Assembly (NCBI RefSeq): GCF_016811075.1
Contig: NZ_JAFBGL010000001.1
Span: 434,001-498,000 of the forward strand
Source of the DNA: Oceaniferula flava
GTDB lineage: Bacteria; Verrucomicrobiota; Verrucomicrobiia; Verrucomicrobiales; Akkermansiaceae
DNA: 64,000 bases
Direction of reading: 5' to 3'
Position numbers and translations under genes: made by a program. Below the pieces are notes generated by a model, which was given only the letters and a program-made list of their open reading frames with translations, did not search any database and was not told the DNA's origin. Shown piece after piece: positions 4,635 through 15,258 of this stretch (its first letter is position 1; each line of letters opens with the position of its first letter).

Positions 4635-5297
4635 CTAGAGCTCATCTAACGTCATTGTCCGACTCTCTCCCTGCTCGTTGGTCTGCCAAATTTGACCAGA
4701 ATCGACGTCCAGAGCGCTGAGCCAGCCACCACCGTAGGCGCAGGTGTCGAGGCAGATGGCGTGGCCGAGGTTAGTGGGCAGGTCGCCTTGGATGGTGTGG
4801 CCGCAGACGACGGTTTTGCCGGAGATATGTGGCTGTTGGCTGTAAAATCGCTGGTAGTAATAAGTTTCCTGATCCTGCTGGTCGACCGGTGTCTGACTGG
4901 AAACCCCGGCGTGCACGAGGATGTGATTTTCCAGTTCGTGGTAGAGTTTCGCTGAGCGCATGAAGTCCCAGTGCGCCTCCGGCACGTCCTCGAAGCTGCC
5001 GCCGTAGGAGTCCAGCGTGTCTTGGCCGCCACACATCTCACTGAGAAAACGGTCGCGGTCCTGGCGGGTTTCCAGTGCGCGGATCATCTGGATTTCATGG
5101 TTGCCCATGAGATGCACGTAGTTGTGGTCTTTTTGGAATTCCAACAGGGAATCGATCACCGACTTCGAGTCGGGCCCGCGATCGACGTAGTCGCCGAGAG
5201 TGACGATGAGATCTTCTGCGCTGGGCTGGAGTTGCTCCAGCATGGTCATCAGCGCGTGGTGGCAGCCGTGAATGTCTCCGATGGCGATTCGTTGCAT
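4635..5297 (-). CDS. PPP-family metallophosphoesterase (serine/threonine phosphatase-like)
   Basis: About 220 residues. The metal-binding motifs of the PPP phosphatase fold are in order: GDIHG near the N-terminus, GDYVDRG about 30 residues later, GNHE, and later histidines in LVHAG and VCGHT. Members dephosphorylate phosphoserine/threonine proteins or cleave diadenosine polyphosphates, and the sequence does not tell which. ATG 5297 (MQRIAIGDIHG) is chosen because the motif follows directly; an in-frame TTG two codons upstream is possible. No partner kinase is nearby. The gene is separated from the PEP-CTERM gene by 82 bp. Confidence 0.9.
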   Translation of the reverse strand: MQRIAIGDIHGCHHALMTMLEQLQPSAEDLIVTLGDYVDRGPDSKSVIDSLLEFQKDHNYVHLMGNHEIQMIRALETRQDRDRFLSEMCGGQDTLDSYGGSFEDVPEAHWDFMRSAKLYHELENHILVHAGVSSQTPVDQQDQETYYYQRFYSQQPHISGKTVVCGHTIQGDLPTNLGHAICLDTCAYGGGWLSALDVDSGQIWQTNEQGESRTMTLDEL

Positions 5298-5447
5298 GGT
5301 CAAAAAATAGAAAAGGTTACTGGGGCTTCAATAGGGTAGCTGCTGGGGTGGGAACAAGGAGGAAATAAGGAAGCTCGCTGGAGGCGTGGCGCTATGCTCA
5401 CCAGTATTTTCTCCCGAAGCTAGCACGCTATCTGCTCAACTGACAAT

Positions 5448-6845
5448 ATGCCCACTACCGAACTGAAAACCACTTTAGACAAGGCCCTACAGGTGAACCT
5501 AGACCCCAAACGCTACGGCACATTTGCAGAAATTGGTGCCGGGCAGGAGGTGGTGCGATGGTTTTTCCGCGCCGGAGCGGCAGCAGGGACTATTTCCAAA
5601 AGTATCTCCGCTTACGACATGAAGGTGAGCGATGCGATTTATGGTCGTTGCAAGCGCTACGTTTGCCGGGACCGACTCGAAAGCATGCTCGAATATGAGC
5701 AAGACCTCAACCTCGAGCGACTGAAATCGGAGCGCGGGGATACCACTGCCTTTTTCACCTTTGCCGATACCGTCTCGGCGCGCAACTACCATGGAACCAA
5801 CGAATGCCATGGCTGGATGGGCGTCCGTTTCCAAGCGCATCCACGCGATGAAAGCAGCCAAATCATCATTCACGTCAGAATGCTGGACACCACCAATGCG
5901 CTCCAGCAGGAAGCGCTCGGCGTGGTGGGGGTGAACCTGCTCTACGGCGCCTGCATGCTGCACCATCACCCGGACAAGCTGATCGAGTCGCTGCTCGATA
6001 ACCTCTCCACGGCACGCATTGAAATCGATATGATTGAGTTCTCTGGGATCGAGTTTCGCCATGTGGACAATCGTCTGATGAGCCTGAAGCTGGTCCAGCT
6101 GGGCCTGACCAGTGCGGCGATGTTTGGTGCGAAAGGGAAGGTGCTGCAGCCGTCCGAGGTGCTCCGCAAGAAGGCAGTGCTGGTGGAGCGCGGCAGCTTC
6201 CGCCCGGTCTGCAACACCAATATCGATATCATGCGCTGCGCCCACGAGCGCTTTATCGTGGAACCTGAAGTCGATGCCGACTCGGTGATCCAGATTATGG
6301 AAGTGACCATGAGTAACCTGATGGCCGACGGGCAGATCGACTATCGAGATTTCCTGGCGCGAGCCGATATGCTGGTGGCCTGCGGCATGACGGTGCTGAT
6401 CTCGGACTATTTCCAATACTACCGCCTCGCCGCCTATCTCAGTCGCTACACCAAGAAAAAGATCGGCATCACCATGGGCATCGGCAGTGTGCGGGAGCTA
6501 TTTGATGAGAAATACTACACCGCTCTGGAAGGGGGAATTCTCGAGTCGTTTGGCAGATTGTTTAAAAATGACCTGAAGCTCTATGTCTACCCGCTCAAGG
6601 ATGCTAACAAGAAAGAGCTGATGACCATCGAGAATCTTGAGGTTTCCGAGGATCTGAAAAACCTCTACAACTACCTGATCGACCGTGGCTGCATCGAACA
6701 GCTCACCAATCACGATGAAGAATGCCTCGAGGTCTTTTCCAGAGATGTGCTGGCCAAGATAGCAGCCGGCGATAAGAGCTGGGAAAAGATGGTGCCGGAA
6801 GAGGTCGCCGAGGTGATAAAAACTCGAGGCTACTTCGGCGCCTAG
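5448..6845 (+). CDS. Conserved protein of unknown function (465 aa)
   Basis: A soluble-looking 465-residue protein with no signal peptide or membrane segment. The N-terminal region around YGTFAEIGAGQEVVRWFFRAG and the later ECHGWMGVRFQ recall a family conserved in Bacteroidetes, Verrucomicrobia and Leptospira. From memory, database entries of this family sometimes bear the label TonB-dependent receptor; nothing in the sequence looks like a beta-barrel or plug, so that name should not be used. The middle is rich in Met, Asp and His. It stands alone, upstream of the island, with its stop about 50 bp before a hairpin that probably served the opposite strand. Function is not inferred. Confidence 0.8.
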   Translation: MPTTELKTTLDKALQVNLDPKRYGTFAEIGAGQEVVRWFFRAGAAAGTISKSISAYDMKVSDAIYGRCKRYVCRDRLESMLEYEQDLNLERLKSERGDTTAFFTFADTVSARNYHGTNECHGWMGVRFQAHPRDESSQIIIHVRMLDTTNALQQEALGVVGVNLLYGACMLHHHPDKLIESLLDNLSTARIEIDMIEFSGIEFRHVDNRLMSLKLVQLGLTSAAMFGAKGKVLQPSEVLRKKAVLVERGSFRPVCNTNIDIMRCAHERFIVEPEVDADSVIQIMEVTMSNLMADGQIDYRDFLARADMLVACGMTVLISDYFQYYRLAAYLSRYTKKKIGITMGIGSVRELFDEKYYTALEGGILESFGRLFKNDLKLYVYPLKDANKKELMTIENLEVSEDLKNLYNYLIDRGCIEQLTNHDEECLEVFSRDVLAKIAAGDKSWEKMVPEEVAEVIKTRGYFGA

Positions 6846-6941: not shown

Positions 6942-6993
6942 AAATGGTGGCTCCACTCGGATTCGAACCAAGGACACGCGGATTTTCAATCCG
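6942..6993 (-). repeat. attL: 3' half of tRNA-Phe, 52-bp direct repeat
   Basis: Bases 6942-6993 are identical to 15180-15231. The copy contains the 3' half of tRNA-Phe on the minus strand: CCA end, acceptor 3' strand, T arm, variable loop, and the anticodon arm up to its 5' stem. The match ends abruptly at 6994, so this is not a complete tRNA. It is the chromosomal 3' end displaced by integration. Confidence 0.95.
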
Positions 6994-7071
6994 TTAATCG
7001 ATCATTAAATCCATTGATTTACAGTGGTTTGTTTCTTTTTGAATTGCCTTATTCCGTTTATTCTCGACTTT

Positions 7072-7091
7072 TAACTGCGATATTGCAGTAA
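7072..7091 (+). promoter_or_regulatory. Candidate integrase arm site or operator, left
   Basis: TAACTGC (7072-7078) and its near inverse GCAGTAA (7085-7091) form an inverted repeat with a 6-bp spacer, ending 6 bp before the integrase ATG. The 12-mer TAACTGCGATAT recurs near the right end at 15112-15123. Presence at both element ends suggests an arm-type Int/Xis site, and the position also allows repression of int. Confidence 0.45.
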
Positions 7092-7097
7092 TGGTTC

Positions 7098-8279
7098 ATG
7101 CCCAGAACTCCACGATTTGATTACAGAAAGACCTCGAAAGGTTGGCTGGTGAATGTGCCAGCCAGTGCATCAGACACCGGTAAATTCCGCCGCCGGTATT
7201 TCTCGACGCGTGACGAGGCTAAGGCCGAAGCTAAGCGGCTACGTGAAGCGGCCAATGGAACACGGGCAAAGGCAATCGACATTCGGGCCGATCTGGCCGC
7301 CGATGCGATCAAGGCGAGCGAGTTGCTGAGTGAATGGGGCATATCTTTAACGCAGGCTGCGATGCATTATATTGAGCATCACGACACGCGAAGCAAGGCC
7401 CCTACGCTCTGCGATGCCTGGACGGCAGGATTGAAGCACAGGGAAAACCACAGGCCGCGAACATTGGCCGACTTCCGAGCATGGGAAAAGGCACTGCCTG
7501 AATGGTTCATGTCGATGAACTGCCACGACATCACCGCCGACGATATCCAGAAGGCTCTGGACGAAACCACCGACGGTCAGACTCGGTGGAAAAACGGAAT
7601 GCGTAACATTTCAGCTATACTTGGCGACGTGGTGAAAAGTGGTGCTATTGAAAAGAACCCAGTGAAGGCGATGAAGGTGAAGCGAAACCCAGAGTCGTCT
7701 GATGAGGTGACCACCTACACGCCCAAGGAACTCAAGGCACTATTTGCAGCGTGTGTTGATTACCCAGAGGGGGAGACTGATCGGCTTTGCTCTGGTTGCG
7801 CTATGCCTTTTGCTTTCATGGCCTTTGCTGGCATCCGGCCCGAAGAAGTCACCAAGTTGCGCTGGGAGAATGTCTCCTTGGAGCTTGGCAACATCAGAAT
7901 CGACGCGACGATTGCTAAAAAGCTGTATCGCCGAAATGTTAGAATTCAGCCGACCCTAGAAAAATGGATCGAGTCAATCCCCGCCAAGGAGCGTGTGGGC
8001 AAGATCATTCCTCCGCGATGGCGATTTAAAGCTGCTAAAGTCCGCAGTAAGGCAGGTATCGACGGCAGAGAGAAGCAGGACGCGCTGAGGCATTCATTCG
8101 GCAGTTATTTACTCGCCACGGAAGGTGATCTTGACGCGCTTAAGTCCGATATGGGGCACGGGCACATGAGCACGTTCTTTGATCATTACCATAAGGCATT
8201 CACTAAGCGCGAAGCTTTGCCCTACTGGCAGGTATTACCCGCTGGCGCTAAACTATCCAATATTTCAGCCGTTGTTTGA
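7098..8279 (+). CDS. int: Tyrosine recombinase/integrase of the tRNA-Phe island
   Basis: A 393-residue site-specific recombinase. It has an N-terminal arm-binding-like region (about 1-60), a SAM-like core-binding domain (about 100-195) and a C-terminal catalytic domain. Visible catalytic residues are R247 (AGIRPEE), K275 or nearby, R331-H332 (DALRHSF), H354 (MGHGH) and Y364 (FDHYHKA). The usual first His of the HxxR motif is Asp328. The gene starts about 100 bp inside the left att repeat, the usual place for an integrase acting on a tRNA 3' end. ATG 7098 follows an inverted repeat that may control it. It presumably integrates and excises this element. Confidence 0.95.
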   Translation: MPRTPRFDYRKTSKGWLVNVPASASDTGKFRRRYFSTRDEAKAEAKRLREAANGTRAKAIDIRADLAADAIKASELLSEWGISLTQAAMHYIEHHDTRSKAPTLCDAWTAGLKHRENHRPRTLADFRAWEKALPEWFMSMNCHDITADDIQKALDETTDGQTRWKNGMRNISAILGDVVKSGAIEKNPVKAMKVKRNPESSDEVTTYTPKELKALFAACVDYPEGETDRLCSGCAMPFAFMAFAGIRPEEVTKLRWENVSLELGNIRIDATIAKKLYRRNVRIQPTLEKWIESIPAKERVGKIIPPRWRFKAAKVRSKAGIDGREKQDALRHSFGSYLLATEGDLDALKSDMGHGHMSTFFDHYHKAFTKREALPYWQVLPAGAKLSNISAVV

Positions 8280-8325
8280 TTACAATTAAAGCATTAACCG
8301 AAGTATCTTAACTAAGAATATTGTT

Positions 8326-8820
8326 ATGAGTGAAAAAACTATTACGGGCGACGATGGCGTAGCGCGAACCTGCATGGAATGGATTAGTTTTCTATTTATG
8401 AAAATGACGGCTTTACGCGGAGGCGAAGACAATGACCAACTAACAATATTGAAGAGAGATTTTCACCTACATGATAGATTGGGAAGTGATCCCGAGACAC
8501 TAGGCAGAATTGCTAATGATTACGTCATAGCGTCGAAGCGCACCAAAGGCGAGTATCTACCGTCTGCGATGGAGCGATTATCAAAGTCTCCTAGTGATGG
8601 AAAAATATTCGAAACGAGACACCGGTTCATTTTGTTTGGAGCAGCACTTGTGAAATTTCAGAGAGAAAAAAGATCCCTCCCTGATACTCGCGTCGAGCTT
8701 GCTGATTATATGGTAGAAAGTTATGACCTTAAAAAGAGGCCGACTCGAAAGGATATATCGGAAGCTCTTGTGTATTTTTCCCTCTCTGAAGTGATAAGGA
8801 AATACTACAAGGGGAAGTGA
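8326..8820 (+). CDS. Island protein of unknown function (164 aa)
   Basis: A mostly alpha-helical, charged 164-residue protein with no signal peptide or recognised motif. It lies 46 bp after the integrase and is relatively AT-rich compared with the flanking chromosome, as accessory genes often are. Its place between integrase and the excisionase-like gene suggests a role in element maintenance, but nothing in the sequence shows this. Confidence 0.65.
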   Translation: MSEKTITGDDGVARTCMEWISFLFMKMTALRGGEDNDQLTILKRDFHLHDRLGSDPETLGRIANDYVIASKRTKGEYLPSAMERLSKSPSDGKIFETRHRFILFGAALVKFQREKRSLPDTRVELADYMVESYDLKKRPTRKDISEALVYFSLSEVIRKYYKGK

Positions 8821-8880
8821 TTGAGTGTTTCTCTCCCCTTTCTACTCAGTTCCAGTGAATTAAGAATAATTCCTACTGTC

Positions 8881-9108
8881 ATGAAGACAGTAACAAATAC
8901 AAAACAAGTCGAAGCGGGCGAGCCTATTCTCGTTCCAGCAAAAGTTATCGCTCGCGATATTAGCTGTTCATCACGCTATGTTCACATGCTCTACGAGCAA
9001 GGGGCGATTCCGGGCGTGAGATTCGGGAAAGCGTGCATCAGGTTCAACCGAGCCGCCGTGTTAGCGGCTCTTGGCGTGGAATCTGAAGCAGGAAAGGAGG
9101 CCGTCTAA
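8881..9108 (+). CDS. Excisionase-like MerR-type HTH protein (75 aa)
   Basis: A small basic protein whose core (PAKVIARDISCSSRYVHMLYEQGAIPGVRFG followed by CIRFNRAAV) has the layout of a winged-helix excisionase/HTH_17 domain: helix-turn-helix, then a wing with a conserved basic residue and the final helix. Such proteins bind attachment sites and direct excision, or act as repressors. ATG 8881 is preferred; a TTG at 8821 would add 20 hydrophobic residues that do not resemble coding sequence. Its stop overlaps the next ATG by one base (CTAATGG). Confidence 0.7.
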   Translation: MKTVTNTKQVEAGEPILVPAKVIARDISCSSRYVHMLYEQGAIPGVRFGKACIRFNRAAVLAALGVESEAGKEAV

Positions 9109-9359
9109 TGGACTCCACCGACGCGAAAACACTCTCGGTCATGATCGGGAATCGAGCTGCTGACAAACTAGCCACTGAAGCGCTAGAGCGGAAAAAAGAG
9201 AAGCTGAAGAATTATTGCAGTAATCTTCCTGCCGAAAAGCAAAAGCTAGTCAGCTGCCACTTTCCGGAGTTGATCGCCCACCAGAGTCATGAGCCGTTAG
9301 ACGATCTTGTCGAGTCCATCCGTGCCGCTGAATTCGAAGAGAAGGGAGCTAGCCAATGA
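9108..9359 (+). CDS. Small island protein (83 aa)
   Basis: A charged, helical 83-residue protein rich in Lys and Glu, with no recognised domain. Its start overlaps the stop of the excisionase-like gene by one base, and its own TGA overlaps the primase ATG (ATGA at 9356). Translational coupling with the primase is therefore likely, and a replication accessory role is a guess from position only. Confidence 0.65.
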   Translation: MDSTDAKTLSVMIGNRAADKLATEALERKKEKLKNYCSNLPAEKQKLVSCHFPELIAHQSHEPLDDLVESIRAAEFEEKGASQ

Positions 9360-10291
9360 GATCCAGATTCGATGAAAACACACTTGCAGAAATTCGCCAT
9401 CGACTGCCGGACTATCTCGAAGCATCAGGCGTGGTACTCAGTCCAAAGGGCACGCGCCTTGTCGGACGTTGCCCTGTTCATGATGACCGTTCGCCATCGT
9501 TCGCAGTATTTGGATCCGACCACGAAAACTGCGGTTGCCATCCATGTGGATTCACTGGCGACGTGTTCAAACTCTCGCAATGGTTAGGACGTTCCAGCAG
9601 CTTCCCTGATGCCGTTCGTGAGGTTGCCGCCGTCCTAGGCGTTCACTTGTCACAGGAACCTAACGGACGCGCCACGAGGCCAGCCACGGCACGAAAAAGG
9701 ACACCCAAGCCGACGACGCAGCCGTTTAAGTTGACCGCAGCCGACAATCAAAGAATTCACCGCGCAAATCTAGCGTTCGATGATGCTTTTTTTAGCGGCG
9801 ACCCGATAATATCAGAAATTGCCGATAGCTTAGGCGTTAACCGTGAAACGCTCCGCATCGCATCATGGGGAAGCTCAGGCCTTGGAATAGCTAACGGATG
9901 GCTCTGCTATGTTTACCCGCAGGGCTTAAAATGGCGCAACCCAGATCCGAAAGCCAAACCGCGTTTTATATGGATCGCTGGTAAAGCCCTAGCACCATGG
10001 CGCATGGACTGGGTAAAACCAGAAACGCGAACCGTGTATTTAACTGAAGGAGAAAGCGACACCATCGCATTGATTGCTGCAGGAGTGGAGGCCGATGGCA
10101 CCGCTGTTAGCGTAGCATCACCCGGCACAAGCTTCTCAAAGGAGTGGGCACCGTTGTTTAAGGGAAAGCGCGTTGTCATTTGCTTTGATTCTGATCCGCC
10201 TGGACGAACTGCCACCGCTACGGTTGCCGCCATCCTCAAGGGGCACGCTTCCGAGGTCCTAACATGGAAAGGATTTGCAAATCATGAGTGA
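9356..10291 (+). CDS. Primase: CHC2 zinc finger plus TOPRIM
   Basis: A 311-residue protein. The N-terminus has a CHC2-type zinc-binding module (C39-P-V-H42, then cysteines at about 59-64) as in DnaG and phage primases. A short helical linker follows, then a TOPRIM domain with E231-G-E-S-D235 and the acidic pair in CFDSDPPG (278-280). It would make RNA primers for element replication. It lacks a fused helicase; the following gene supplies an ATPase and overlaps its end by 8 bp. It is shorter than DnaG, as in satellite and plasmid primases. Confidence 0.88.
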   Translation: MRSRFDENTLAEIRHRLPDYLEASGVVLSPKGTRLVGRCPVHDDRSPSFAVFGSDHENCGCHPCGFTGDVFKLSQWLGRSSSFPDAVREVAAVLGVHLSQEPNGRATRPATARKRTPKPTTQPFKLTAADNQRIHRANLAFDDAFFSGDPIISEIADSLGVNRETLRIASWGSSGLGIANGWLCYVYPQGLKWRNPDPKAKPRFIWIAGKALAPWRMDWVKPETRTVYLTEGESDTIALIAAGVEADGTAVSVASPGTSFSKEWAPLFKGKRVVICFDSDPPGRTATATVAAILKGHASEVLTWKGFANHE

Positions 10292-11942
10292 AGCAGCACT
10301 AGCGAAAGATGCGCGTGGAATCCTAACGACGGCAGGGGCACCAGCACTACGCGCTGCCGTGCTCGACGTGGAACCGATCGAAGCGCCAGCCGAGGCCGCG
10401 CCACCGTTGGACAGCGCCGCCATAGAAATCCCAGACAACATTTTTCCAGTGCCTGCCGGAGGGATTGGAAACAATGCCGCCGCTGAAATCATCTTTCCTG
10501 CAATGGGTAAGATGAAGCGGCTATTCATGCGCGGATTTACAGTCCATGAAATCGTTCAGGGTGCTGAGATGGACTATCTCGCCCCCATATCACCGGAAAG
10601 ACTTTGCAGCCTTGTGGAGACGGCAGGGAGTCGCATTGCGCGGCGGGAGGTGAAAAAGGGTGATGATGGTAAGAAATCAACGGTGTGGAGATCGACAACA
10701 TTTCCCGTAAATGCCGCCAAGATTCTGTTAGAAACGGATGCATCTCGCCAATACCTGCCAACAATCCGCCAGCTCGTGAATTGTCCGATCCTAACACAAG
10801 AAGGGAAAATCCTTACTCGCGGATACCATGACCACGCGGGTGGAACCTACATCGGAGCTGGGCACAATCCCGAGGAAATCCCATTCAATACCGCCGTCGG
10901 TGCATTGCTTGGAATCCTTGGTGATTTTGAATTTGCCACCGAGTCGGATTTATCGAGAGCCTTCGCCAGCCTCATATCACCAGCACTAAAAATGGGGGAC
11001 TGGATCAACGACGACTTTCCTTTGGATCTTGCCGAAGCTACCGAGTCGCAGAGCGGTAAGACCTTCCGGCAAAAGCTCGTGTGCAGAATTTACAACGAAG
11101 TTCCCACATCGATCACCCTTGCTCGTGGTGGAGTTGGTAGCATCGATGAAAGTATCTCCGCGGCACTCGTGAAGGGCCGCCCGTTCGTGACACTCGCCAA
11201 CATGCGCGGGAAGATCGACAGCACAATCCTGGAGGAGGCCTTGCGAGGCTCAGGCCGCGTCAACTGCCGGACGCTCAGGAATAGCACCGAGGTAGACTGC
11301 AGACCATTCTTGTGGCAGTTCAGCACCAATGGCGCTGAGCTAACGAGAGACCTTGCCAACCGTGCAATAGTCACCCGCATACGGAAAAGACCGGAGGGGC
11401 GCGAGTGGAAGGAATACGCTGAGGGCGATCTTGAAAGCCACATCATAGAACATCAAAACTTCTATCTCGGATGTGTGTTTTCAGTTCTGCGAGCATGGAA
11501 GGCAAAAGGGCAACCCACTACGAAGGAATCACGCCACGACTTCCGGACATGGTGCCGGACGCTCGACGGTATCGTGCAGCTATGCGGACTCAGACCGCTA
11601 CTAGACGGTCACAAGGAACAGCAGGAGAGAACGGCCAATCCTCAGCTTCAATGGCTCAGGGAGATCATTCTTGCCGCTAAGCCGTCGCAGTATGACGCGG
11701 AGTTATACACCCACGATCTTGTAAATATCGCAGAAGATTACGGCATCGAGTTTCCCGGCAATCCATACTCTAAGGATGAACCGAACAAAAGAGCTGGGCG
11801 AATACTGGGTAAAATATTCAGAGATGTGGGCGGTGAAGAGATCGAGGTTGACGGCTTTATTTTTTCTCGGAATGAGTCGCCAGATTACTCCGACGAGGGG
11901 AAAGGGCGAACGGTTAAAAAATACACCATCAAAAACCTGTAA
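10284..11942 (+). CDS. AAA-type ATPase, putative replicative helicase of the island
   Basis: About 552 residues from ATG 10284, overlapping the primase stop; an in-frame TTG at 10275 is less likely. The centre holds a P-loop-like ESQSGKT, a Walker-B-like strand (RPFVTLANMRGKID) and a sensor/arginine-finger region (FSTNGAELTRDLANRAIVTRI). This layout fits the DUF927-like or P4/D5-like ATPases that sit beside primases in mobile elements. The Walker A is a relaxed version of GxxxxGK[ST]. It probably unwinds the element's origin. A helicase role is inferred from neighbour and motif order, not shown directly. Confidence 0.72.
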   Translation: MSEAALAKDARGILTTAGAPALRAAVLDVEPIEAPAEAAPPLDSAAIEIPDNIFPVPAGGIGNNAAAEIIFPAMGKMKRLFMRGFTVHEIVQGAEMDYLAPISPERLCSLVETAGSRIARREVKKGDDGKKSTVWRSTTFPVNAAKILLETDASRQYLPTIRQLVNCPILTQEGKILTRGYHDHAGGTYIGAGHNPEEIPFNTAVGALLGILGDFEFATESDLSRAFASLISPALKMGDWINDDFPLDLAEATESQSGKTFRQKLVCRIYNEVPTSITLARGGVGSIDESISAALVKGRPFVTLANMRGKIDSTILEEALRGSGRVNCRTLRNSTEVDCRPFLWQFSTNGAELTRDLANRAIVTRIRKRPEGREWKEYAEGDLESHIIEHQNFYLGCVFSVLRAWKAKGQPTTKESRHDFRTWCRTLDGIVQLCGLRPLLDGHKEQQERTANPQLQWLREIILAAKPSQYDAELYTHDLVNIAEDYGIEFPGNPYSKDEPNKRAGRILGKIFRDVGGEEIEVDGFIFSRNESPDYSDEGKGRTVKKYTIKNL

Positions 11943-11954
11943 CCCTTATTCCCC

Positions 11955-12048
11955 CGCGTTTCCCGCGTTCACCTATTCTTTCTAGAATCGCTACACTAAA
12001 GACAAAAAGTGTAGTCATTCTAGGAAGTTATCAGCAACGCGGGAAACG
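11955..12048. other. Nested inverted repeats, candidate replication origin of the island
   Basis: Two nested inverted repeats lie in the 170-bp gap after the ATPase gene. The outer arm CGTTTCCCGCGTT (11957-11969) is mirrored exactly at 12036-12048. The inner arms are CTAGAAT..CTACACT (11982-11997) and AGTGTAG..ATTCTAG (12008-12023), around a 10-nt AT-rich loop. No T-run follows, so a simple terminator is unlikely. Proximity to primase and ATPase suggests an origin or regulator-binding site. Confidence 0.45.
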
Positions 12049-12114
12049 GCGGGAGAGTTTACCAATTCACCGCCAAGCCCCACAGAAACCAAGTTGTAAC
12101 CGCGCCTTTTGTAT

Positions 12115-12456
12115 ATGCTGATTACGACATTTGAGCCGTCAGAGACACCCGATCTTCCCGCGCTGATTGACGGCGAGGAACCGAAGCCCGCGAACCCCTA
12201 CCGTGAAGCGTCCATCCGGTATCTGGAGATCGTGAACACGGTCACAACTTACATCACAGAGTCACCCTCTCCAACCGTTGCCGCCTGGGCCGTTGTCTAT
12301 GCACTTGGCTTGCCATGCGCCGAGGGGGTTTCCCTAACAGATAGGGCGGAGCAATTAGGCATTTCAGTAGCTGCCTTGTCAAAGCAGGTGAGAATTATCC
12401 AGAGACGCTGCAACGTAGAGGAAAGCTTGTATTCTAACAACAAAGACAACCGATGA
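12115..12456 (+). CDS. HTH DNA-binding protein (113 aa)
   Basis: The C-terminal half (VSLTDRAEQLGISVAALSKQVRII) reads as a helix-turn-helix like sigma-70 region 4 or an ArsR/LuxR-type recognition helix, preceded by an acidic Pro-rich N-terminus. It probably regulates island genes or binds the adjacent inverted repeats. ATG 12115 is chosen over a TTG two codons upstream. Its TGA overlaps the next ATG (ATGA at 12453). Confidence 0.65.
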   Translation: MLITTFEPSETPDLPALIDGEEPKPANPYREASIRYLEIVNTVTTYITESPSPTVAAWAVVYALGLPCAEGVSLTDRAEQLGISVAALSKQVRIIQRRCNVEESLYSNNKDNR

Positions 12457-12974
12457 TCGACAACATAGAAAAAGCAATGGCCGATGAACTCAGCAAGGCC
12501 CACGTCATCACGCAAGACTTGATCGCCAAGGCTAGCGCCGCAGTGAAGGCCGCTACTGGATCCGCTGCCTACGCTGGGCAACTGGTCGAAAAGGCCAGCC
12601 GGAGCAAGAAGACCACCGTTTACCAGTGGCTCAGTGAGTGCGCTCAGATCGACGGAGAGACAGCCCGAGCCTACAAGCTGGCACATACTACCGCGCAGAC
12701 CCGCAAGGCTCACAGCGACCGACGCTGCTTGCTTCGCTTAGGCGTGTTGGAAGGTCAGGTGAAGACGCAGGCCAAGCCGAGCAAGGTGAAGACTCCTTTG
12801 TCTCTGTCATCTATTGTCAGGCGTGCCACTGCCAGCGTTGCCAAGGGCTTGGAGAATCGACCAATCAGCGCCATGAGTGGAGCCGAAAAGCACTTGTTGA
12901 AAGGTCAACTGGAAGACCTAGCAAGGGTCTATGTGGAACTGTCCCGCCCCGCTCAGTCCTCACAGGGCCAATAA
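12453..12974 (+). CDS. Island protein of unknown function (173 aa)
   Basis: An alpha-helical, Ala/Lys-rich 173-residue protein. The central segment (KKTTVYQWLSECAQIDGETARAY) could be a helix-turn-helix, so a small DNA-binding or replication-control protein is possible. It is translationally coupled to the preceding HTH gene by ATGA. Its 3' end overlaps the end of a minus-strand gene by 22 bp. The family is not recognised. Confidence 0.65.
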   Translation: MIDNIEKAMADELSKAHVITQDLIAKASAAVKAATGSAAYAGQLVEKASRSKKTTVYQWLSECAQIDGETARAYKLAHTTAQTRKAHSDRRCLLRLGVLEGQVKTQAKPSKVKTPLSLSSIVRRATASVAKGLENRPISAMSGAEKHLLKGQLEDLARVYVELSRPAQSSQGQ

Positions 12975-13165
12975 CCGGAATCGGTCAATCTGACCACCTT
13001 ACCATCATGGCATCTCATTCGTAACCATCGACACGCCTCAAGATCGCTGCCGAAGTCATGGGCATCTATTGCGTCATTCACTGGCATTAGATATTTCATC
13101 TTCGTGCCTGCTTTGATTTGAAAGGCCACGAACGAGCCGTTAGCTGACTGAATTACATAGCGCAT
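12953..13165 (-). CDS. Small island protein (70 aa), minus strand
   Basis: A 70-residue product with a protein-like alternation of hydrophobic and charged residues (MRYVIQSANGSFVAFQI... GYWPCED). It ends tail-to-tail with the preceding gene, overlapping by 22 bp. No family is recognised. It could be a small antitoxin or an inhibitor, but nothing beyond composition supports this. It is listed because the reading frame looks coding and the other strand here is otherwise empty. Confidence 0.45.
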   Translation of the reverse strand: MRYVIQSANGSFVAFQIKAGTKMKYLMPVNDAIDAHDFGSDLEACRWLRMRCHDGKVVRLTDSGYWPCED

Positions 13166-13525
13166 GTTTTCAGTGTGTATTTTGGTGCTGAGTTAGTGGA
13201 TACAACGAGCCGAAGATATACGAGATTGGAGATAAATCCACGATGTTAGACTGTTCATTCAATCAGTTCCGTGTGAGGCGCGACCGCAAACCCCTATAAG
13301 TCAAGGTTATGGGATACCCCCCCCTAGGAATTCTAGTAGGGCAGGCGCTTTTTAAGGGGTCCTGTATGCTTACCGTCAAAAAACACGCGAAGTGCGCAGA
13401 ATGACCTAATCAGGATTAGCTTGAATCCACCACTTTTTCAGAGCGTTACACTTTGGCCGGATCAAAGCCAGTTGAATTCAGTTCATTAGTAACGAGGACA
13501 CCAACAAGCCTCTTGATTAGATCAT
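13166..13525. other. 360-bp non-coding region of the island with two small inverted repeats and a C-run
   Basis: No convincing gene is seen. At 13291-13313 an imperfect inverted repeat (CCCCTATAA ... TTATGGG) is followed by eight C residues (13317-13324) and a near-palindrome centred on GAATTC (13324-13341). Such clusters occur at oriT, cos or regulatory sites. No relaxase or terminase is nearby to choose between these, so function is unassigned. Confidence 0.4.
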
Positions 13526-13771
13526 ATGAATACATCACCCACACCAGGACTTGCCGCAGCTTTTAAGCGCGGAGGATTCACCCCTTCAGAGAACAAGCCC
13601 GCCCCCAAGCCCCATACACCCGTGGGGAAATTTAATCCATCAGCAGCACCGCAGCAGGTGGCATGGACGCCGCCTGTCATCCCTACGCTGACCCGCGCAG
13701 GATTCCGCGCTCTCTCCTTGAAACAGCGCTCTGCCTTCCTAGCAGCCGAGGGAAAAATCACTGAAGCTTAA
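13526..13771 (+). CDS. Small Pro-rich island protein (81 aa)
   Basis: An 81-residue protein rich in Pro, Ala and Lys (APKPHTPVGKFNPS), probably largely disordered, ending in a short helix (FRALSLKQRSAFLAAEG). No family is recognised. It is the first of three short plus-strand genes spaced by about 12 bp, which probably form one transcript. Confidence 0.55.
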   Translation: MNTSPTPGLAAAFKRGGFTPSENKPAPKPHTPVGKFNPSAAPQQVAWTPPVIPTLTRAGFRALSLKQRSAFLAAEGKITEA

Positions 13772-13782
13772 CAAGACCCGCC

Positions 13783-14277
13783 ATGACCAAAACCCAAAAC
13801 AATCGCCCGTCCGCGACCATCCGAAACGACATCGAGCGCCTGCCAGCCGAAACCCGGCTTGCATGGGTTCGCTATCAGTCCGCGAAGCAACGCGCGGAGA
13901 TGCTAACAGCCGAGACAACGAGCGAATTGCTCTGTTTAAAGGGCAGTGAAGACCTCACGAATCCCGATAACTCAGGCTCAGTGATTGCCTCGTTCGTAAG
14001 ATCGGAAAACGGCAACGAGCTGGCTTCGACTCTGGCAGTGATGGAGATCATTCAGAGATCGGAAGGATTCATCGACGCTGAAAAACGACTGGTGCCACTC
14101 CTAGACGAGCTGAAGGCGTCGGAACAAGCCGAGCGCCAACATTCTGCGAAGATCGCAGCCGCAAAAGCTGCAATTAGTGAGGCTGAGGAGGCCGCGAAAG
14201 CAAGGGCCTTGGAAGCCGCCGCAGACGATCCCGAGATTGCCAAGGCTAAAAAGGCCTTGGAGAAGATCGAAGCCTAA
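13783..14277 (+). CDS. Coiled-coil island protein (164 aa)
   Basis: The second half is a long Ala/Glu/Lys-rich helix (from about residue 100 to the end) typical of a coiled coil. The N-terminal half is helical with no recognised motif. It resembles small scaffold or structural accessory proteins of phages only in general composition. It lies 11 bp after the preceding gene and 12 bp before an excisionase-like gene. Confidence 0.6.
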   Translation: MTKTQNNRPSATIRNDIERLPAETRLAWVRYQSAKQRAEMLTAETTSELLCLKGSEDLTNPDNSGSVIASFVRSENGNELASTLAVMEIIQRSEGFIDAEKRLVPLLDELKASEQAERQHSAKIAAAKAAISEAEEAAKARALEAAADDPEIAKAKKALEKIEA

Positions 14278-14289
14278 CCATTCACAGTC

Positions 14290-14493
14290 ATGACCATTGA
14301 AACCATCGAAGCCCCCTTGCTCTCTGAGTCAGAGGTACGCCGCAAGGTCTTTTCAAAGGAGGCCCGCCCGAGCAAGGAGAGCTTTGCACGCATCCGCCGT
14401 GAAATGGGAGTGCCTCACGTCAAGATCGGCAGAAAGGTCTTTTATCAGGAGTTACCGGTTCGCGAGTTTTTCCTAAATTACCGCGAAACATAA
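14290..14493 (+). CDS. Second excisionase-like DNA-binding protein (67 aa)
   Basis: The segment from ARPSKESFARIRREMGVPHVKIGRKVFYQ to the end matches the helix-turn-helix plus wing pattern of small excisionase/AlpA-like proteins, ending with the conserved (K/R)(K/R)xFY wing. It is a candidate recombination directionality factor or regulator. The short region after it contains a terminator hairpin at 14553-14592. Confidence 0.6.
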   Translation: MTIETIEAPLLSESEVRRKVFSKEARPSKESFARIRREMGVPHVKIGRKVFYQELPVREFFLNYRET

Positions 14494-14552
14494 CCGCAGA
14501 AATTTTAGCCAGAGGTTTTTTATTGTCCTCGGTGTTCTTAGGCTAATGAACT

Positions 14553-14592
14553 GCCCGCCCCTCTGCAATCCGAGGGCGCGGGCTTTCATTTT
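14553..14592 (+). terminator. Terminator hairpin between convergent island genes
   Basis: GCCCGC-CCCTC pairs with GAGGG-C-GCGGGC (14553-14583, one bulged C) over an 8-nt loop, followed on the plus strand by TTTCATTTT. It ends the plus-strand run and lies just before the stop of the convergent minus-strand gene. Confidence 0.75.
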
Positions 14593-14951
14593 ACCTTCAT
14601 GACCCAGACATCAATCCCTAGTTTTTTTCCGTCGATAAGGCTACGGAGTCGCATCAGGTGTTTTCGGTCTTTCTCACTGCGAAGTACTAGGAGGATGCCC
14701 GCTTTTTTATTTGTCTGGAATGAATACCAGAGCGCCTGTCCTACACCCTCGGCCCATTTTTCAGCAAATTCGACTTCGATAGCATGAGTGGCTGTCACAA
14801 TATCACAGCGTGTTCCGTCGCCCATTCTCACCTCAACCTCGCCACCGTGCGCCTTGGCCCACGCCTTTTGATAATCAGACTCATAAAGTTTCCTCTCAGC
14901 TCCTTGTAGGCTCAGGGAGGTTAAGAGCAGGGCGGCGAATAGTAGTCTCAT
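14586..14951 (-). CDS. Secreted PD-(D/E)xK nuclease-like protein (121 aa)
   Basis: It has a clear N-terminal signal peptide (MRLLFAALLLTSLSLQGA). The mature part has the spacing of a PD-(D/E)xK fold: E38-V-E40, R48-C-D50-I-V, then I58-E-V-E61-F with K65 three residues on, and GQALWYS, where the Gln may be the helix residue seen in this superfamily. Cytoplasmic relatives in mobile elements carry a similar D...EVxxxxKW...GQ core. A nuclease-like domain with an export signal is unusual. Catalysis is not shown. It is the last gene of the island, on the opposite strand. Confidence 0.65.
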   Translation of the reverse strand: MRLLFAALLLTSLSLQGAERKLYESDYQKAWAKAHGGEVEVRMGDGTRCDIVTATHAIEVEFAEKWAEGVGQALWYSFQTNKKAGILLVLRSEKDRKHLMRLRSLIDGKKLGIDVWVMKVK

Positions 14952-15111
14952 GCCAAAATCATAACGCGAGCGTGATAGGTCGCAATGATTACCGGATGGA
15001 ATAACGAGAAAGACGGCTTGCGACCAAGTGGCACGCGCTGGGGCTACTCACTGATGCCGGATTGCAGAAGGCTCTAATACGTAGTGAACGGAGAAGGTGA
15101 ACTTCGTTTTA

Positions 15112-15130
15112 TAACTGCGATATAACTGCA
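15112..15130 (+). promoter_or_regulatory. Candidate integrase arm site, right
   Basis: TAACTGC occurs twice as a direct repeat (15112-15118 and 15123-15129) within TAACTGCGATATAACTGC. The first 12 bases match 7072-7083 near the left end. It lies about 50 bp from the right att repeat, a typical distance for arm-type sites. Confidence 0.45.
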
Positions 15131-15179
15131 CCGCTGGAAAGACATGTTAGGCTCAAAGTGCCTGTAAGTCATTGTGTTT

Positions 15180-15231
15180 AAATGGTGGCTCCACTCGGAT
15201 TCGAACCAAGGACACGCGGATTTTCAATCCG
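15180..15231 (-). repeat. attR: 52-bp direct repeat inside tRNA-Phe
   Basis: This is the copy identical to 6942-6993. It forms the 3' half of the functional tRNA-Phe, so the element brought in a replacement 3' end and kept the tRNA intact, as is common for tRNA-targeting integrases. Confidence 0.95.
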
Positions 15232-15258
15232 CTGCTCTACCAACTGAGCTATGGAGCC
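15183..15258 (-). tRNA. tRNA-Phe (GAA anticodon)
   Basis: A 76-nt cloverleaf reads on the minus strand. It has a 7-bp acceptor stem (GGCTCCA with TGGAGCC), a D arm (GCTCAGTTGGTAGAGC), an anticodon arm GCGGA-TTGAAAA-TCCGC with anticodon GAA, a T arm containing GGTTCGAATCC, discriminator A and an encoded CCA end. It is the attachment target of the island, which lies directly downstream of its 3' end. Its probable original terminator is now 8.2 kb away at 6891-6923. Confidence 0.97.

Follow-up and report, generated by a model that had tools for sequence, protein, structure and literature searches.

How an island that carries its own integrase and replication genes could spread with neither recognised virion genes nor conjugation genes is the question raised by a tRNA-Phe locus of Oceaniferula flava, examined here in a window of 64,000 nucleotides. 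The island is bounded by exact 52-bp direct repeats at 6942-6993 and 15180-15231, spaced 8238 bp apart (8290 bp counting both repeats). The right repeat lies inside an intact tRNA-Phe (GAA) gene (15183-15258, minus strand), the sole tRNA gene in the window, and covers the final 49 nt of this 76-nt gene, while the left repeat is an identical 3' tRNA-Phe fragment; the exact ends at tRNA-Phe claimed in the original prediction are therefore real. A 15-bp motif, TTTTAACTGCGATAT, is located just inside both ends on the plus strand, at 7069-7083 and, with one mismatch, at 15109-15123, and has no further copy in the window even when two mismatches are allowed (0.08 expected). These copies are probably integrase arm sites; the left one belongs to a 34-bp stretch of which 33 positions are identical in locus L036, whose integrase is 65% identical to that of the island.

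The empty site is represented by two genomes of the same genus (G012 and G035), in which the phosphatase found at 4635-5303 of the window comes immediately after tRNA-Phe and the island is absent. The gene at 5448-6845 is likewise missing there, so that the difference consists of the island plus this gene. The left-flank gene is uninformative for the empty site because it duplicates a gene on another contig (51% identity) and is not conserved at the site; the right-flank gene is present in three of 14 genus genomes, own included. On the evidence of sequence, the island is inserted specifically at tRNA-Phe.

From the integrase to position 14493 all genes are on the plus strand, except for a doubtful minus-strand ORF of 70 aa (12953-13165) with no Pfam or PADLOC match. 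The tyrosine integrase (393 aa, 7098-8279; PF00589 4.4e-11, above the Pfam cut-off; phrog_1 1.1e-25) agrees with the original assignment. It is followed by g2 (164 aa, 8326-8820), which has no convincing family and, among 10,711 ORFs from the loci compared, matches nothing else at E 0.1, by a 76-aa excisionase-like HTH protein (8878-9108) and by g4 (83 aa, 9108-9359; DUF3091 0.0039, under the cut-off). The gene at 8878-9108 could alternatively begin further upstream, at a TTG at 8821. Two excisionase-like proteins had been predicted: the one at 8878-9108 is sustained by phrog_1840 (1.6e-3), by the excisionase domain model TIGR01764 (1e-3, under the model's cut-off) and by a 47% identical homologue in L050, whereas the second, a small HTH-like protein at 14290-14493, is weak, with phrog_20360 at 0.016 as its only family match; it also matches an L103 ORF at 7.9e-4 among 10,711 ORFs.

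A DnaG-type primase of 311 aa (9356-10291) contains CHC2 and Toprim domains that pass the Pfam cut-offs (PF01807 1.1e-10; PF13155, Toprim_2, 3.2e-10), as had been predicted, and has long matches of 63-71% identity in G116, G126, G165 and G185. The predicted ATPase corresponds to a D5-like replicative helicase of 552 aa (10284-11942), which has no Pfam match up to E 1 and yet matches phrog_29234 at 1e-14; its relatives are 64% (G167), 58% (G098) and 50% (G039) identical. A structural model of low-to-medium confidence (pLDDT 59) matches D5-like helicases at TM 0.23-0.37, namely AsfvPrimPol (1.3e-8), PriRep1 (9.8e-7) and SCCmec Cch (8.4e-5); the PriRep1 entry, for which a literature search turned up no paper, is taken by us to be a staphylococcal island protein. 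The self-replicating core proposed for the island is plausible.

The possible origin of the original prediction can be placed at ~11951-12054, where inverted GC-rich arms with iteron-like repeats enclose an AT-rich core in which an inner hairpin is nested, the whole starting within 10 bp of the helicase stop. The DNA fold of 11943-12108 reached -31.3 vs -14.5 (sd 2.8) for shuffled sequence (z -6.03), with none of 200 shuffles as good, and a hairpin scan matched only this region in the island and nothing in window positions 17001-64000, used as control. The same helicase-hairpin layout is found in five other related loci: in the scan of 25 loci, six match no more than 9 bases from the helicase stop, although the criterion was set after the hairpins of the window, L029, L031, L054 and L140 were known, so that these five are not independent and only L103 is new. 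L053, L057, L089 and L106 match away from the helicase stop, and the rest of the 25 do not match, including L030, which is similar by eye. Two of six further control loci, themselves picked for a primase match, also match (L095, and L096 inside a repeat tract). Hairpins in L034 and L032 are unremarkable, 17 and 20 of 30 shuffles folding equally well; this fold comparison left out two regions of more than 450 bases. A strong fold directly after a stop codon could also be a transcription terminator, which is an unlikely function here: no T run follows the hairpin, its arms contain iteron-like repeats, AT content is 64% in its core vs 48% for the whole island, and core letters are common to the island and L029, two loci with 64% identical helicases. 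In L031, L103 and L030, AT makes up only 54, 55 and 58% of the core.

Downstream of the probable origin, the HTH-like protein g7 (115 aa, 12109-12456) is 37% identical over 94 aa to L186:10192-10578 (2.2e-15 among 10,711 ORFs), which sits upstream of terS and terL in a prophage-like locus; g7 was not found with a profile of the satellites' HTH genes. It is followed by g8 (173 aa, 12453-12974), at the position that TerS occupies after the HTH gene in L054, L140, L183 and L184. This protein matches L057 (6.3e-8 among 10,711 ORFs) and, by profile, L140 (2.6e-8); its weak, all-helical model (pTM 0.30) has no structural match below E 0.001. That g8 is a simple TerS homologue was rejected: when its profile was compared with those of two TerS alignments, the probabilities were 0.2 and 0.3, and in L140 a g8-like protein occurs alongside a phrog_57 TerS. 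A "g7-like"/"g8-like" pair read by eye in L104 was discarded (19-22% identity, no match of its own among 10,711 ORFs).

Between g8 and g9, 551 bp (12975-13525) contain no convincing plus-strand gene. A TerS profile of 13 sequences run against 273 six-frame pieces of the island gave a best E of 0.33, in the primase frame, and no TerS remnant in this gap. The next gene, g9 (81 aa, 13526-13771), ends in a C-terminal motif common to TerS-carrying elements: it matches L140 at 4.7e-4 among 11 proteins, and a motif profile seeded with the window, L140 and L191 retrieved the unseeded L184 ORF 9307-9720 (0.0027 among 10,711). The coiled-coil-like g10 (164 aa, 13783-14277) matches L184 (1.2e-6) and L140 (1.5e-4) among 10,711 ORFs, and in both loci the g9 and g10 counterparts lie downstream of TerS; a g10 search through 387 phylum genomes recovered nothing beyond the copy in the window, and neither g8 nor g10 has a match in phage records. 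The last gene, g12 (121 aa, 14586-14951, minus strand), belongs to no family, has no plasmid match and no solved relative (best 0.76), and probably represents cargo; judged by eye, it seems to carry a signal peptide. A PADLOC defence-gene scan of ten ORFs returned nothing.

Packaging, capsid and conjugation genes had been predicted to be missing, and capsid, portal or relaxase homologues among the unassigned genes had been named as what would change the class of the element. Scans of 13 island ORFs with Pfam, and of 12 of these with PHROGs, recognised neither a capsid or portal gene nor a large terminase or relaxase, no relaxase was found with NCBIfam in nine ORFs, and no other conjugation gene appeared in these scans.

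In the same bacterial family and order, seven firm elements and one tentative element are tRNA-integrated, the firm ones with both ends at tRNA genes and lengths of 5405-8654 bp, and they combine integrases, primases and helicases in mixed fashion; the L034 primase is 70% identical to that of the island. Five of the seven firm elements (L034, L054, L140, L183 and L184) encode TerS with no recognised TerL, and in the four of phrog_57 type a small HTH protein follows TerS. Judged from sequence, the island is kin to elements that carry TerS and no recognised TerL. Proteins of L050, L057 and L104 taken for TerS by eye had no PHROG support (L104 phrog_57 0.53) and were not counted. Homologous TerS occurs in five prophage-like loci, each beside a phrog_15 TerL, which suggests candidate helper phages; prophage-like loci pointing to such helper types are L186, L189, L190, L194 and L195. 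The genome itself has no PF05065 capsid and none of the 14 genus genomes has a phrog_15 TerL, hence no helper of these types is resident and the helper is probably external. IMG/VR contained no close relative of the island helicase, primase, integrase or g8, the primase aligning there with 20 loci at 21-36% identity.

The island is probably a small integrative phage satellite, PICI-like but with no TerS that can be recognised. The helper-dependent satellite of the original prediction stands as the best-supported reading, mainly through the TerS-carrying relatives and the g7-L186 match, and is upheld in part. Conjugative mobilisation, in which the island would bring only an oriT, borrow a helper relaxase and use its replication genes to maintain the excised form, has a precedent in oriT-only elements (PMC11389934) and in distant helicase matches in four plasmid records; it is nevertheless very unlikely for an island with no conjugation gene found, whose g7 points to a terminase region and whose g9/g10 or primase are held in common with elements that carry TerS. 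Nor is there much probability that the island is a satellite that has lost TerS and now stays integrated, no longer packaged. The six-frame absence of TerS and a gap close to the size of a TerS gene would suit such a loss, but the island retains open main genes, exact ends and conserved arm sites, and PICMI is packaged though, as far as its published descriptions indicate, it needs only a DNA motif.

For a phage satellite, the island integrase would have placed the island in tRNA-Phe, and infection by a helper phage would induce excision by the integrase and the excisionase-like protein, replication from the origin-like hairpin by the island's own primase and D5-like helicase, and packaging in helper particles. 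As TerS is not recognisable, packaging would depend either on signals of the helper, through a site in the satellite DNA read by the helper terminase, or on a function of g8, g9 or g10. A more far-reaching proposal, which is improbable as a whole, is that the island belongs to a large modular satellite group, in which the integrase, the primase, the helicase plus matching iteron origin, and the packaging gene are each swapped independently; in its branch TerS would have been dropped, and g8, at the position of TerS in relatives, would form with g9-g10 a new packaging or capsid-redirecting module. Two questions follow: can a satellite that lacks both TerS and capsid genes be packaged, and how do satellites trade a helicase and its origin as a unit while the rest is kept? 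Phage satellites are best known from few bacterial groups; taken with its relatives, the island suggests a varied group of satellites in a bacterial family for which, at the level of titles and abstracts, no description was found.

Among known systems, the island agrees with phage satellites in general in its apparently specific integration by its own recombinase and in the absence of a full virion gene set; unlike integrative mobilisable elements it has no recognised relaxase, and unlike cfPICIs no recognised capsid genes of its own. PICIs of the SaPI type resemble it in the specific integrase, the primase, the helicase-type initiator, the probable own origin and the lack of structural genes, as well as in the TerS without recognised TerL of its relatives. 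The SaPI origin is AT-rich and flanked by iterons, divergently transcribed regulators adjoin the PICI integrase, and TerS is one of several routes by which PICIs redirect packaging. In contrast, the island has no divergent regulators beside the integrase, no TerS by six-frame profile and no recognised capsid-remodelling gene, and its direct kinship to PICIs would lie only in the modelled helicase fold (PriRep1 entry); SaPI initiators with helicase activity and SaPI primases have been described (PMC7145576). The PICMIs of Vibrionaceae resemble it in their small number of genes, in having an integrase and primase and in the lack of capsid remodelling, and according to their descriptions their mobilisation apparently requires no more than a DNA motif (PMC10803314, PMC11389934); they are described as lying beside fis, with AlpA and DUF3987/DUF5906 primase models as their defining features, whereas the island is at tRNA-Phe and has no Pfam match to these. 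Tycheposons, by description, are like the island small and tRNA-integrated. They and VEIMEs are listed as proposed satellite families of marine bacteria (PMC11389934). The five TerS-encoding elements of the same family differ from the island in that gene and resemble it in size, tRNA site, integrase and replication genes.

The two 52-bp repeats bounding the island (6942-6993 and 15180-15231) are identical, and the right one contains 49 of the 76 nt of a tRNA-Phe(GAA) gene (15183-15258, minus strand) that is intact at this end; the predicted island with exact ends is thus real. Its GC content, in 1-kb steps, is 0.44–0.55 against 0.53–0.60 in the surroundings. The right-flank gene is present in only two other genomes among 14 of the genus (G012 and G035), both showing the order ParB, glutamine cyclotransferase, tRNA-Phe and phosphatase with nothing between the last two; between tRNA-Phe and the same phosphatase, the window holds the island and one extra gene (5448-6845). 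This gene, without Pfam match and missing from the empty site in both genomes, is a further insertion adjoining the island; a second copy, 51% identical, lies on contig C10. A 15-bp motif is located just inside each island end with no other occurrence in the window, and a 34-bp stretch containing it is the same at 33 of 34 bp in the compared locus L036, where its neighbours are a 65% identical integrase and, by eye, a tRNA-Phe-like relic. Region 7880-9860 of L036, in which relic, arm sequence and integrase are accompanied by a disrupted fragment from the island's helicase family, represents the remains of an element related to the island.

Among the island genes, the integrase (7098-8279) and primase (9356-10291), both on the plus strand, are certain by Pfam; an excisionase-like gene (8878-9108) lies between them, and of the two excisionase-like proteins originally predicted one is supported and the other weak. 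The predicted ATPase (10284-11942) matches phrog_29234 (1e-14), has no Pfam match, and weakly matches a polymerase/primase family in the PHROG search (9.1e-6). Its structural model, of low to medium confidence (mean pLDDT 59, 202 of 552 residues below 50), matches the helicases AsfvPrimPol, PriRep1, SCCmec Cch and MPXV E5 at E of 1e-8 to 1e-4 but low TM-scores of 0.23–0.37; the protein is likely, though not proven, to be a D5-like replicative helicase. As predicted, no capsid, portal, terminase or relaxase was found among the ORFs scanned.

The 166 bases 3' of the helicase fold into a nested hairpin (z -6.03, equalled by 0 of 200 shuffles) with short repeats in the outer arms and a core AT-richer than the element. 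Comparable structures stand 3' of the helicase in L029, L030, L031, L054 and L140, and are absent with other helicase types (L033, L034, L050); a scan, in which the structure begins at most 9 bases from the helicase stop in 6 of 25 loci, added L103, the only independent case because the scan was devised once most other hairpins had been seen. In L034 and L033, primases 67–71% identical to that of the window precede unrelated helicases, in L034 of the DUF5906 type (falling a little short of the cut-off) and in L033 of the AAA_25 type (1.6e-37). The first ~45 residues of the window helicase are 61–77% identical to the partners of these primases and the remainder matches a different protein, fused in L029 to a BT4734-like domain; helicase parts have thus been swapped behind the primase.

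Among 195 family genomes, 23 have a helicase match (three long, 50–64% identity) and 9 a primase match at 1e-20; across the order, 37 of 386 genomes match the primase profile at 1e-15. Ends were sought in 41 loci (36, L140 and four more), many of whose contigs stop within the element, and are firm at tRNA genes in seven related elements of 5405–8654 bp: L033 (5405 bp, tRNA-Ala, repeat copies 92% identical), L034 (7838 bp, tRNA-Lys), L054 (8311 bp, tRNA-Thr), L104 (8654 bp, tRNA-Lys), L140 (7539 bp, tRNA-Asn, copies 95% identical), L183 (7769 bp, tRNA-Met) and L184 (7922 bp, tRNA-Val). L105 (6356 bp, tRNA-Cys) is tentative, its ends resting on a 16-bp repeat alone, and L100 also shows a 16-bp repeat, which is chance-like. 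At a greater distance, 54-bp tRNA-Arg repeats enclose a 14.7-kb stretch of a Deltaproteobacteria MAG (L028 2061-16846) whose helicase is 33% identical to that of the window, and twenty viral contigs (L120-L139) carry a distant primase relative (21–36% identity).

A terminase small subunit (TerS) is encoded by five of the seven firm elements, namely L034 (Terminase_2 1.1e-8; phrog_51 1.5e-18), L054 (phrog_57 1.8e-12), L140 (1.3e-7), L183 (1.1e-9) and L184 (2.4e-8), and by the incomplete loci L185, L187, L188 and L091. L187 1-2693, from another genome, is an element end, cut by the contig, that adjoins tRNA-Phe, the tRNA type used in the window. The TerS profile matches 21 of 195 family genomes, the island's own not being among them, and 13 loci were taken from these matches for inspection; a large subunit (TerL) of the phrog_15 type adjoins TerS in five (L186, L189, L190, L194, L195). 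No same-strand ORF of at least 300 aa starts within 400 bp after TerS in L183, L184, L185, L187, L188, L054 and L140, by a rough test, given that L186 with its overlapping TerL and L193 with its long ORF both escaped it. When 88 ORFs of eight elements were grouped, the 25 of 53 families listed included integrase (8 members) and TerS (4) and no TerL, capsid or portal. In the unrooted TerS tree, the seven terL-side sequences cluster with support of 0.85, or 1.00 without L186.

Downstream of TerS, a small protein resembles only its HTH half, being matched by profile (2e-5 to 5.7e-4) in L054 (13304-13609), L140 (15134-15367), L184 (9031-9288), L187 (1152-1370) and L188 (1769-1990) and recognized by eye in L183 (9276-9521) and L185 (899-1138). 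One idea is that it acts as a decoy for the packaging site; since five loci elsewhere match too, HTH proteins in general may show this resemblance to TerS.

In the window's element no TerS was detected by profile on six frames. L140 and L184 each have the order HTH, TerS, small HTH, g9, g10, and the window has g7 (12109-12456), g8 (12453-12974), a 551-bp gap (12975-13525), g9 (13526-13771) and g10 (13783-14277). The g7 product matches a protein of L186 (37% over 94 aa) encoded upstream of terS-terL with other ORFs intervening and is missed by a profile built from the HTH genes of the satellites; g7 is therefore better tied to this prophage-like locus than to those genes. The counterparts of g10 in L184 and L140 emerged from a smaller ORF set, and 387 genomes of the phylum gave no second copy. 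The host genome has no PF05065 capsid and phrog_15 TerL is found in 0 of 14 genus genomes (4 of 14 control genomes were positive in the same search), so that no resident helper of these types is present.

Confidence in a satellite reading is slightly lowered because the origin scan is not independent and the phylum search for g10 was negative. Among phage-inducible chromosomal islands (PICI), those of the SaPI type have primases and initiators with helicase activity (PMC7145576); for PICMI, a DNA motif seems to suffice for mobilisation (PMC10803314, PMC11389934). The island is probably a PICI-like phage satellite that has no recognisable TerS, belonging to a group with exchangeable parts.
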